Of a stretch of 64,000 bases of DNA, positions 6,119-9,068 are shown piece after piece. This stretch comes from Brugia malayi (Eukaryota; Nematoda; Chromadorea; Rhabditida; Onchocercidae). Numbering within the stretch: the stretch's first letter is position 1; each line of letters opens with the position of its first letter. The stretch spans positions 18,906,721-18,970,720 of the forward strand of contig NW_025062479.1 of NCBI RefSeq assembly GCF_000002995.4. The letters are read 5' to 3'. The notes under the pieces were generated by a model, which was not told where the DNA came from, searched no databases, and saw only the letters and a list, made by a program, of their open reading frames with translations. The translations under genes were made by a program, and so were the position numbers.

Positions 6119-7253
6119 CAATTAATGGATCAGTTTTTTCAGGTTTATGTCGTCTGAAAACTCTTAATCACAAGTCAATTACCAAGTTTTTCATTACATA
6201 CACTACCGCTTTACAGCTACACATGGGTTAGTAACAGACGATCTCGAGGATGTCGTGAGTCGGAGATAACTTTGGGTCGTGAAATGGTGAATTTGAATCT
6301 AAAAGCGGAGATTGAAAAATATGTCAAAACCAATAGCGAAAGTTCATAGACTCCATGTATCGCAGAATGTGAGAAGGGAGAAAATGACGTGAGGATTGAC
6401 GTCTGCACAATATGATCTAATAACAACAGCACTGCGATTTTGTACTAAGTAAAGCACTAGAAAATTTAAAAATCAACCATAGGCGTTAATAAACATAATA
6501 ACTAACGTGAAGTTTCTCATCGATATGAAACAAGGCCTTAAAGAGCAATGTTTATGTTGCAGATTGCACTCATTTCAGAATCAGTAATTCATAATCGCCT
6601 TTTCTTAAAAATGTGAAACTGTCATGCTCTCCAAAGTATGATTACTTCATCTTTCCTCCCTCTCTTCATTTTATAGCATTAGAATAAAACTGACCACTTT
6701 TTACTCTTAAAACGAATTTCAAATAAGTTTCAGGTTACATCAGATAGCGGATATGTATCATTATTTGCAGTATTCACAGCAATGATCATTTACATTAAAT
6801 ACCAGTAAAATTTGCCATGTTTGTACGTAAATGCTACGCCAGCACGGGTTAACGAAGCGGACCAATTGTACCGTCGATTGTATATTATATTTCCTTTGTT
6901 CGTTTATTTCCGCATTCTACTACGTGATAAACTATGCACGCTTGTCCACTTACTCATTTCTCATGTGTATCCAGTGCACAAAGTTCTCTCATTAAACTCC
7001 TCTGACAAAAACACCAGATATGAGAATTTTCAAAAACACTGTGAAAATGAGATTAGGAGGTAAGGAAGGAAAGAGAATAGATATTAACATTAATTTCAAG
7101 AGACGCATTTGACATTCCTTTTGCAGCGCATCGAAAACGATGCATATCCTCCCTACACAATATTTTGAAGTTAAGCAAAGAACGGACGATAACAGACATG
7201 AAAAAAGATATATTTACGGAATTTAGACTGCCTACTATGATACCTAATACTGT

Positions 7254-7527
7254 CAGTAAATAGGCTGAAAGTAAAAAACAATCGACAACAACGGAAATTT
7301 ACTTATCTAAGTAGAGTATTAAACGACGTGAATTACAAAAAACGACGAAGAAATTCAACGGGTGGAGAAATACAATGGCAAGCACAATATTCTGGCAATA
7401 AACGACGATGTACAAGCAAACGACAGTTACGACACTCAACGACAATTCAAGGATCAAGAAGAAAAGGAGAAGAAAACAACAACGGTCAGCTCGACCAGTT
7501 CTACTGATAGTACAACCGAAGTTATAA
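7254..7527 (+). repeat. Left arm of inverted repeat
   Basis: Inverted relative to 8306-8551, with high identity over about 245 bases. The left arm carries an extra block of about 19 bases near 7330-7350. Both arms can be read to give VEKYNGKHNILAINDDVQ, on + here and on - in the right arm. Together they bracket about 780 bases. Confidence 0.85.
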
Positions 7528-7944
7528 AAGGAATCGTCTCTTATTAAATAAAGGTTGAAATATTCTTTTTCTTTTCTACAAAATTTTAATTATTGCTGCC
7601 GAAGGTACTTTAGTAACTATAGAATAAGGAGGGGATTGTATATAGTGTATATAGGATTTTATAGTTAATAAAGAACAAAGGAGGTCGTTAACAAAGGAGT
7701 CATCCTAACAAGCAACGAAGCGAAGGGAAAAGCACAATGAGACAATAGATGTACAAAGGAAACGATGTGGATATTAAACCAGAACAAAGAAGGGTTGTCA
7801 GCGATATAAGCGGAGCAATTTCTCGATACGTATGTTGCATGCGGTCGACGAGTTGAAGGATGGTGGTAGAGCGCGCTTAGGTCGCGTTAGAGGAAAACGG
7901 TTAGGAGGACGCGTAAGAGGGATTAGTTCTTAGGACAACAACGG

Positions 7945-7966
7945 GGTTTAATTACCCAAGTTTGAG
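7945..7966 (+). ncRNA. Perfect 22-nt SL1 spliced-leader sequence (SL1 RNA pseudogene or retrotransposed leader)
   Basis: All 22 bases of the nematode SL1 leader (from GGTTTAATTACCC to AAGTTTGAG) are present with no mismatch, followed directly by GTAAAAGC. Real SL1 RNA genes also continue GAG|GTAAA, so the match extends about 5 bases past the leader. Downstream, 7994-8001 reads TATTTTGA, resembling a weak Sm site. No 5S rRNA, the usual filarial neighbour of SL1 genes, is visible, and no clear 3' hairpin follows. The match is far too long for chance. Whether it is an SL RNA pseudogene, a variant gene, or the 5' end of a reverse-transcribed trans-spliced mRNA is open. Confidence 0.85.
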
Positions 7967-7997
7967 GTAAAAGCTTTGATAATGCTTAGAAACTATT

Positions 7998-8375
7998 TTG
8001 AAACGAAGAGAAACGACTAATCAAATTTATGGACCAAAGAATCTAGACGATGCAAAAACAACGTGCAACAGAAGAATTCAATTCAATCAACGAAGAGGAA
8101 CATCAGTAATACCGGCAATACAATTTCAAAAGGAAAGCACAAATCAAAACATCAATTCTAGCAAAAGATCAAGACCTTGTGCACTTTGCAATCGAGATCA
8201 CTGGGACAACGAATGCCGAAAATATACAACTTTGGAAGAACTCCTTGCAAGATTAAACGCTCGAAAAGACTGCTTAAATTATAATTTTATCACGTTTCTT
8301 CTCTTCGCTTCGGTTGTACTATCAGTAGAACTGGTTGAGCTGATTGTCGTTGTTTTCTTCCCCTTTTCTTCTTGA
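7998..8375 (+). pseudogene. Gag-like zinc-knuckle fragment of BEL/Pao element
   Basis: The open frame, which lacks an in-frame ATG, encodes a basic Asn/Gln/Arg-rich stretch followed by CALCNRDHWDNEC (about 8189-8227), a C-x2-C-x3-H-x4-C knuckle. RKYTTLEELLARLNARKDC follows. The CxxC/H/C knuckle followed by 'Y-x-T-x-E-x-R/L-x-x-L' is typical of the gag-protease region of Pao/BEL retrotransposons. Real homology ends near 8280; the rest of the frame runs into the antisense of the right inverted arm. This would be the nucleic-acid-binding part of a capsid polyprotein, truncated here and presumably non-functional. Confidence 0.6.
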
Positions 8376-8551
8376 CCCTTGAATTGTCGTAACTGTCTTT
8401 TGCTTGTACATCGTCATTTATTGCTAGAATATTGTGCTTGCCATTGTATTTCTCCACCCGTTGAATTTCTTCGTCGTTTAATACTCTACTTGGACAAGTA
8501 AATTCCCGTTGTTGTCGTCGATTGTTTTTTACCTTCGGCCTATTTGCCGAC
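8306..8551 (-). repeat. Right arm of inverted repeat
   Basis: Reverse complement of 7254-7527. On the minus strand it lies inside an open frame of 90 codons (8562 to 8290) with a basic lysine-rich segment. No known domain is recognised. Confidence 0.85.
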
Positions 8552-9068
8552 AAATACTTCATTTCTAAGAACTTTCCTGATCGGTCGTGAAGTTGGGAGG
8601 ATAGTTTTCATGCCGACCATATCAATAGTGATACAGCGGGATGGAGGTGTCGTGGAACGTGAGTACCCTGATGTCAGTCTGAAAATATGGGTAGTTCGGG
8701 TGAGGTTGGCTTTGGTGTGGTTTTTGGGTAGTGTGCTGTTGGGGAAGGAGATAGTCGCTTGGTAGGCAAACTGAGAAGTGAGAACGGCAAAGAAGTCAGG
8801 CAGTAAGGTTTGCTGAGCAAAGTTGGCAAGATCCTATACAAGCGGGGACTTAGTTTTTTCTTTTTTTTGAACTTTTAAAAGGTCTGAAATTCATTTGATT
8901 TCTCGAGAAATAACATTTGGGCTGTTTTTTTTAACTCGTTTTTTTGAAGTTGAAACTGTTCCCGTCTTGTAGGACTTGTTTATCAAAGATTTCTGGTTTT
9001 TTTTTTTGAAAAAGGATTTCTGGTTATAGTTACGGGAGTGATTTCTGATAGCTCATAGCGCTTTCACA

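Follow-up and report, generated by a model that had tools for sequence, protein, structure and literature searches.

A complete SL1 spliced leader inside the long terminal repeats of several Brugia malayi retrotransposon families, most likely acquired through trans-spliced element RNAs

Copies of the SL1 leader close to retrotransposons are already known from Brugia malayi. The available text of Foster et al. 2020 counts 120 intrinsic SL1 sequences, of which 60 lie no more than 1 kb from PAO elements and now and then form a same-strand pair around one element, and infers that the leader was added to expressed PAO transcripts that then integrated (PMC7181701). The copies we describe here resemble those in the 22-mer, the element class and the general inference; however, in its available portions that report describes SL1 as flanking elements, whereas here it lies inside the long terminal repeats (LTRs), at one place per family, and mosaics that break at SL1, SL1-less relatives, and solo LTRs with target-site duplications that carry SL1 go beyond that description. 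In C. elegans, RNA of the LTR retrotransposon Cer1, of the Gypsy/Ty3 class, is trans-spliced to SL1, the leader being found on the spliced RNA while the 8-kb RNA is not trans-spliced at that site (PMC3315495); the text available to us makes no mention of SL1 in LTR DNA, in contrast to the present elements, which carry it there and are BEL/Pao-type where linked. For flatworms, 597 discarded SL loci tied to mobile elements (LTR, LINE) have been explained by integrated trans-spliced transcripts (PMC12582326), but these are partial leaders, for which the sections available describe no within-LTR structure, unlike the full SL1 here. Dinoflagellate retrogenes, in which reverse-transcribed trans-spliced RNA leaves a relict leader in DNA (PMC12014239), are, in the part of that source available, cellular genes with a leader fragment, whereas here the leader sits in the terminal repeat of a replicating element. 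A literature search made mostly without subscription journals returned no description of SL1 inside LTRs. Set against these sources, as far as they were available, SL1 near PAO elements is already known. What looks like new detail is where SL1 sits within the LTR, together with the mosaics and the relatives that have no SL1; a counterpart without SL1 whose join falls at an AG, the two SL1 sites of one family (F1) and a further lineage (Z) also seem additional. The B. malayi genome offers SL1-bearing and SL1-less relatives for comparison.

The window analysed here is a stretch of 64,000 nucleotides in contig C139 (24.9 Mb), and other copies were sought in the assembly of this single species (86.8 Mb, 139 contigs). 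SL1 occurs in the window at 7945..7966 on the plus strand (22/22 bases, 0 mismatches), followed directly from 7967 by GTAAAAGC; it is the sole match at up to 3 mismatches in the window, and 100 dinucleotide shuffles gave 0. The leader and the bases after it, a gag zinc knuckle 3' of it (CX2CX3HX4C, in a fragment 90% identical to another copy's gag) and inverted arms around it (about 7251-7537 and 8292-8552) are all present as the preliminary description of this DNA had claimed. By comparison with other copies, 7246-8557 resolves as one insertion, with a unit of ~1.3 kb, made up as follows.

7246..7250, no strand: left half of the target-site duplication, AATAC, an exact match to 8553-8557
7251..7580, plus strand: short SL1-less LTR, TGTCAG...CTACA (comparison with other copies)
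7295..7316, plus strand: decayed second SL1-derived site, AAATTTACTTATCTAAGTAGAG, inside the short LTR (alignment with relatives)
7581..7595, plus strand: first post-LTR bases, AAATTTTAATTATTG, ending short of the primer-binding site (comparison with L059)
7598..7966 (start approximate), plus strand: U3 portion of a long LTR, its first bases missing, with SL1 at its end (alignments)
7945..7966, plus strand: perfect SL1 leader, the first SL1 site of F1 LTRs (motif scan, relatives)
7967..7974, plus strand: GTAAAAGC, a donor-like LTR/gag junction (comparison with relatives)
7971..8280, plus strand: gag fragment with the zinc knuckle at 8178-8216, 90% identical to C139:2828180-2828490
8272..8552, minus strand: inverted short-LTR piece, outer end TGTCGGC on the minus strand, without the TATA/AATAAA end (alignments)
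8553..8557, no strand: right half of the target-site duplication, AATAC, an exact match to 7246-7250

The unit has TGT...ACA LTR ends, with AATAC on both sides of 7251-8552, and its right LTR is inverted; U3 ends face outwards on both sides, and what integrated at this locus was therefore probably a rearranged cDNA. The U3 block 7598-7966 plus a few bases is 85% identical to C139:2826.5 kb and 80% to a solo LTR of family F1 at C138:4081.7 kb, which is bounded by the duplication TCAGT. GTAAAAGC itself is LTR sequence (GAG|GTAAAAAAC in relatives) joined to gag (AGTAAGCTTCG in L059) at a short common GTAA. With inverted LTR pieces in place of two direct LTRs, and with no pol in its 1.3 kb where an intact gag-pol would be expected of a complete element, the unit reads as a rearranged, dead and defective member of F1. 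Peptidase_A17 is absent from it; the gag piece, which covers the later part of gag only, gave nothing above the Pfam cut-off, and PDB and Pfam searches together returned weak zinc-knuckle-type matches at most. The gag of the F1 relative L059 matches PF03564 (DUF1759) upstream of the zinc knuckle (32.8 bits, cut-off 25.4; a 60-residue piece with X placed at stops), a domain that we take to be that of BEL gag, and by this assignment is BEL-type. In one F1 relative A17 is matched at C139:8846601, in the orientation of that copy's SL1 and gag match. SL1 stands at the same place, perfect or with 1-2 mismatches, in F1 relatives at C139:2826.9 kb, C138:4081.7 kb, C135:9514 kb, C3:65.9 kb, C58 and C10, and at loci L034-L038, L046, L049 and L050 the same place holds SL1 or a decayed form. 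The preliminary description had allowed that other copies might lack SL1, leaving an isolated insertion; instead the relatives keep it, and the window copy is better read as part of the LTRs of several retrotransposon families than as a stray insertion.

Genome-wide, SL1 has 404 sites at up to 2 mismatches, many of them in SL gene arrays, and 103 perfect copies (100 listed) that are not preceded by C and so lie outside the usual SL-gene context. We read 93 contexts, picked for a perfect SL1 and including the window and L058, and assigned the class, TATA and AATAAA labels ourselves; 92 are LTR-type, from several families. With a letter for the U3 end and a number for the U5, they comprise 52 a-1, 5 a-2, 2 d-2, 12 b-3 (family F3), 2 b-1, 1 b with unclassified U5 (L080), 16 c-4 (family F4), 2 F1 and 1 outside any recognisable LTR (L135). 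SL1 occupies one place per family and in most contexts read is next to an AATAAA signal, which falls within 10 nt before or 22 nt after it in 84 of the 93. In class 1 the GTTTCACGACA end lies eleven bases past SL1, and internal-side copies then have the TTGGTGCC primer-binding site. When 20 further copies each of F3 and F4 were fetched by U5 alone, 38 of the 40 had SL1 or a decayed form; of the remaining two, one retained just the 3' portion of SL1 and the other just the initial nine bases. GT or GC directly follows SL1 in 89/93 contexts; a donor function for it was considered and set aside, the sequences beyond mostly resembling poor donors. TATA motifs lie at -35 (L008), -50/-44/-17 (L082), -23 (L093) and -44/-38/-16 (L003) relative to SL1, a spacing compatible with a transcription start near SL1 and too loose to serve as proof. 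With ~100 genomic SL1 copies in LTRs, libraries primed on SL1 could include RNAs that falsely appear trans-spliced, and the annotation of SL genes can be misled. Six perfect SL1 at C136:10316014-10326191, on one strand and at an exact 2,031-bp spacing, belong to a tandem unit with an a-1 LTR (first copy L079).

Both LTR ends were found for 12 of the 93 contexts, and five of these (four a-1, one b-3) have perfect 5-bp duplications (shuffled mean 0.47, maximum 4); three of the 12 lie before a primer-binding site, three after a GGGAG tract, and one, L122, is the second (3') LTR of the full element begun by L121. F4 is a ~466 bp repeat with TGT...ACA ends and SL1 at 266-287 of 466, and among eight copies read, one is bounded by a perfect duplication, GCTAT. 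The solo LTRs with duplicated target sites, together with SL1 in both LTRs of an element, show that SL1 is inherited within LTRs. Of 17 same-strand SL1 pairs with 4-9 kb between them, 6 have a Peptidase_A17 match inside, two of these with a common LTR, and 9 of the 11 pairs without one are a single tandem array. Among the 100 listed perfect SL1, 21 have a same-strand A17 match within 6 kb, none of them F3 or F4; F3 is linked to a-1 solely through resemblance of their LTRs (the chimeric LTR of L003 matches the two), and F4 was linked to no element body. Conversely, the 114 A17 places (137 matches, overlapping fragments partly dropped) include 18 within 6 kb of a perfect SL1, 15 near a site of the SL1-less family X and 81 near neither, lineage Z among these last. 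Where a body could be linked, the SL1-bearing elements are BEL/Pao-type. At C139:15344449-15360838 three Peptidase_A17 matches stand exactly 6,014 bp apart with SL1-bearing LTRs between them, and these tandem elements seem to have LTRs in common. The commonest family, of Pao type, has ~22 peptidase matches of nearly the same score (7.0e-45, 7.9e-45), many of them in open frames of 1,831-1,838 residues; its two LTR regions read, L140 and L141, gave no SL1-like sequence on either strand when up to 5 substitutions were allowed.

We consider it likely (roughly three chances in four) that the LTRs of several families carry SL1 as a built-in module, gained by trans-splicing and reverse transcription and since inherited, and that the window holds a copy in a dead F1 member. 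SL1 most likely entered the LTRs via trans-spliced element RNAs copied back into DNA. An element RNA would gain the host SL1 by trans-splicing downstream of its 5' end and upstream of the primer-binding site; reverse transcription would yield a short minus strand ending in the SL1 complement, which would transfer to a 3' LTR, either on that RNA or on one packaged with it, leaving U3-SL1-U5 in both new LTRs. From then on SL1 would be replicated along with the rest of the LTR, and recombination between LTRs would spread it. The first transfer would be eased by six bases, GGTTTA, that family X has at this place in common with the SL1 5' end, and later ones by SL1 in both partners. Among the observations against this explanation, SL1 is mid-LTR in F1 and, as given above, at 266-287 in the F4 repeat, and only the 21 of 100 listed perfect SL1, none in F3 or F4, are near a same-strand A17 match. 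A reverse-transcribed, trans-spliced retroelement RNA was one of three origins put forward in the preliminary description; for the families it gains support from the bare exon and its place in LTRs, and for the window locus it fails, SL1 having come in there as part of an LTR.

The clearest view of SL1 as a module comes from family X, which has no SL1 at its join, AATAAAG|GTTTATTAATC...TTTCACGACA, beginning AATAAAG|GTTTATT; its 22-nt core has 51 genomic sites at up to 1 mismatch, and in its LTR regions L143 and L145 neither strand has anything resembling SL1 when up to 5 substitutions are allowed. Class-2 LTRs read AATAAA-SL1-GTTTATTAATC, with U5 as in X. In the three LTRs compared, the U5 is identical to X at 59-60 of 63 positions plus 4 gaps, while similarity over the 150 nt upstream is at shuffle level. 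L121 matches X at 138/145 positions over 150 nt, the primer-binding site and gag start included; by contrast, the last 74 U3 bases plus SL1 of L009 and L121 are 98% identical to a-1. Similarity to a-1 runs on for 3 nt beyond SL1, and similarity to X sets in 2 nt before SL1 ends, so that in class 2 SL1 is the exact boundary between blocks of two different families, and stands where X has whatever lies upstream of an AG. In L009, a 35-nt block resembling X and a 56-nt block resembling a-1 lie farther upstream in the LTR, making its U3 a patchwork rather than the product of one clean swap. The element flanked by L121 and L122 has a peptidase (L194) that groups within X, at 96-97% identity, against 58-60% to a-1; the X peptidases in this comparison were chosen by nearness to an SL1-less X site, a status that LTR reading confirms for two regions only (L143, L145). 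Of two further peptidases compared, L203 adjoins L214 (SL1 with 1 mismatch), and L202 is only doubtfully SL1-less. The b-1 LTRs combine a b-like U3 end with a class-1 U5, and the U3-U5 combinations a-1, a-2, b-1 and b-3 are all found.

These mosaics also enter an explanation to which we give about even odds: the leader was acquired in one or a few ancient captures and has been passive since, with no role in replication, and the mosaics arose where the template switched between short stretches of homology (AGGTTT, GGTTTA). The common AGGTTT is a possible site of the crossover, which makes the mosaic explicable without new trans-splicing, and the X AG, judged by the nematode splice-acceptor consensus, is a poor acceptor with no pyrimidine tract, which counts against capture by trans-splicing there. 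SL1 also decays within families almost as fast as its flanks (F4 4.6% vs 6.2%; F3 5.7% vs 9.9%), in a sample of 32 of 40 places each from which 8 F4 places and 8 F3 places with altered SL1 are omitted, so that the F3 figure leans towards conservation. Strong within-family conservation was accordingly rejected as a description, the effect in F3 and F4 being modest only; such decay speaks against a strong function, although dead copies would show it in any case. Perfect SL1 across classes with dissimilar neighbouring sequence speaks against a mere passenger, although the contexts were chosen for perfect SL1.

Lineage Z, in which SL1-like sequence lies in LTR regions beside three Pao peptidase matches of similar score, bears on the same question. 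Its LTRs read GGTTTAATTACCCAAGATTGAG (L214, 1 mismatch) and GGTTTAATTACCCAAGATAAAG (L144, L215, 3 mismatches), ~80-100 nt before a TGGTGCC/TGGTGCT primer-binding site and near the LTR end, and SL1 is therefore not confined to the a-d combinations, F1, F3 and F4. The peptidase matches are in open frames of 1,268, 1,840 and 1,969 residues, and a leader with 1 mismatch in one LTR and 3 in two others beside such frames favours a passive passenger. It also speaks against SL1 as an R region renewed by trans-splicing, a further reading of the younger families that we regard as tentative and rather doubtful. In the retroviral R-region model, a terminal repeat of the RNA provides homology for minus-strand transfer; here the RNA would begin with SL1, encoded or trans-spliced, and end just past it, and the leader would be rewritten from the host. 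Trans-splicing should remove the 5' R of an LTR element and hence be harmful, and leader-bearing LTRs would be a way round this. Were the reading true, any trans-spliced element RNA could complete reverse transcription, and unrelated families would have one common R and hence swap U3 and U5 through SL1. Z appears to support the spread of SL1 in LTRs and to weaken renewal about equally, and the idea does not cover F1, in which the TATA/AATAAA pair lies ~300 nt downstream of SL1.

About 50 bp beyond the first, F1 LTRs have another SL1-derived site that looks older, GTTTAATTACCCAAGTTGAG-TATTAAACG in L046, L047 and L053, where the window has its decayed form at 7295-7316 and L049 a single perfect SL1 fused onto the second-site context; L043 and L044 miss the first site. 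This double SL1 points to repeated capture or tandem duplication. The short LTR 7251-7580 differs from the long LTRs in being without the U3 block and first SL1 site, with the junction GAAAG|TAAAAAAC, and it could be asked whether it and its inverted partner represent the state of F1 before capture or derive from the long LTR by deletion or splicing. We think the former unlikely: short LTRs do read GAAAG|TAAAAAAC or CCGAAG|GTAAAAAAC against SL1-GAG|GTAAAAAAC in long ones, as such a state would, but the U3 block adjoins 15 of the 18 main short-LTR matches by position (one partly), and the junction has a common AGGTA and GT...AG ends, which deletion or splicing would fit equally well. No clean SL1-less ancestor was found in this one species for F1, F3, F4 or Z, with F3 and F4 searched by U5 only.

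An origin of SL1 in LTRs by mutation and selection, mimicking a trans-spliced 5' end with no trans-splicing involved, is very improbable: X, though SL1-less, has AATAAAGGTTTATTAA at this place with the six bases in common with the SL1 5' end, but SL1 is identical at 22/22 positions in classes with different flanks, and the U5 continues as in X right after the exon 3' end. The other two origins first proposed, in which the element would contain a decayed SL1 RNA gene or an SL RNA unit that it had captured, have next to nothing in their favour beyond a weak window match to the Rfam SL1 model (RF00198, 25.3 bits), owed mainly to the leader and far below both the gathering score of 75 and two genuine SL RNA genes of the same genome (122 and 101.8 bits), and are refuted as far as sequence allows. 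The supposed SL RNA-like stem and Sm-like site likewise find no backing in that score; a scan of the whole window at gathering score gave no Rfam match, nor did four LTR-type contexts (L008, L082, L093, L121) and the isolated L135 match the SL1 model at E <=0.5. In SL array copies the exon is followed by GTAATTG, in one with 5S rRNA adjoining, whereas that intron start follows SL1 in 0/93 contexts, the exon being bare. The window copy lies outside the SL gene arrays with only gag and LTR pieces around it, and an SL gene context was rejected, GTAAAAGC and then gag standing in place of a GTAATTG intron or 5S unit. The window SL1 and its GT are best read as a fossil of an LTR, neither a working donor nor an SL RNA gene. 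The two Gs before the leader had been suggested to be cap-template additions, but other families show other bases there.

Three minor observations concern SL1 elsewhere in the genome. L135 (C139:19250540) is a perfect SL1 in no recognisable LTR, with TTTTACCAGAAA before it and ATACGAG after it; no tRNA was found there, and it is possibly a retrocopy of another trans-spliced RNA. In the C18 array (L013-L017) some SL RNA units have a changed leader (GGTTTAATTATCC...) and ATAATTG replacing the GTAATTG donor, and are apparently dead SL genes. Slippage of the SL1 tail is seen in L005 (C4:36480), where TTTGAG is doubled, and at C1:79881, which reads a scrambled GGTTTGAG...AGTTTGAG.
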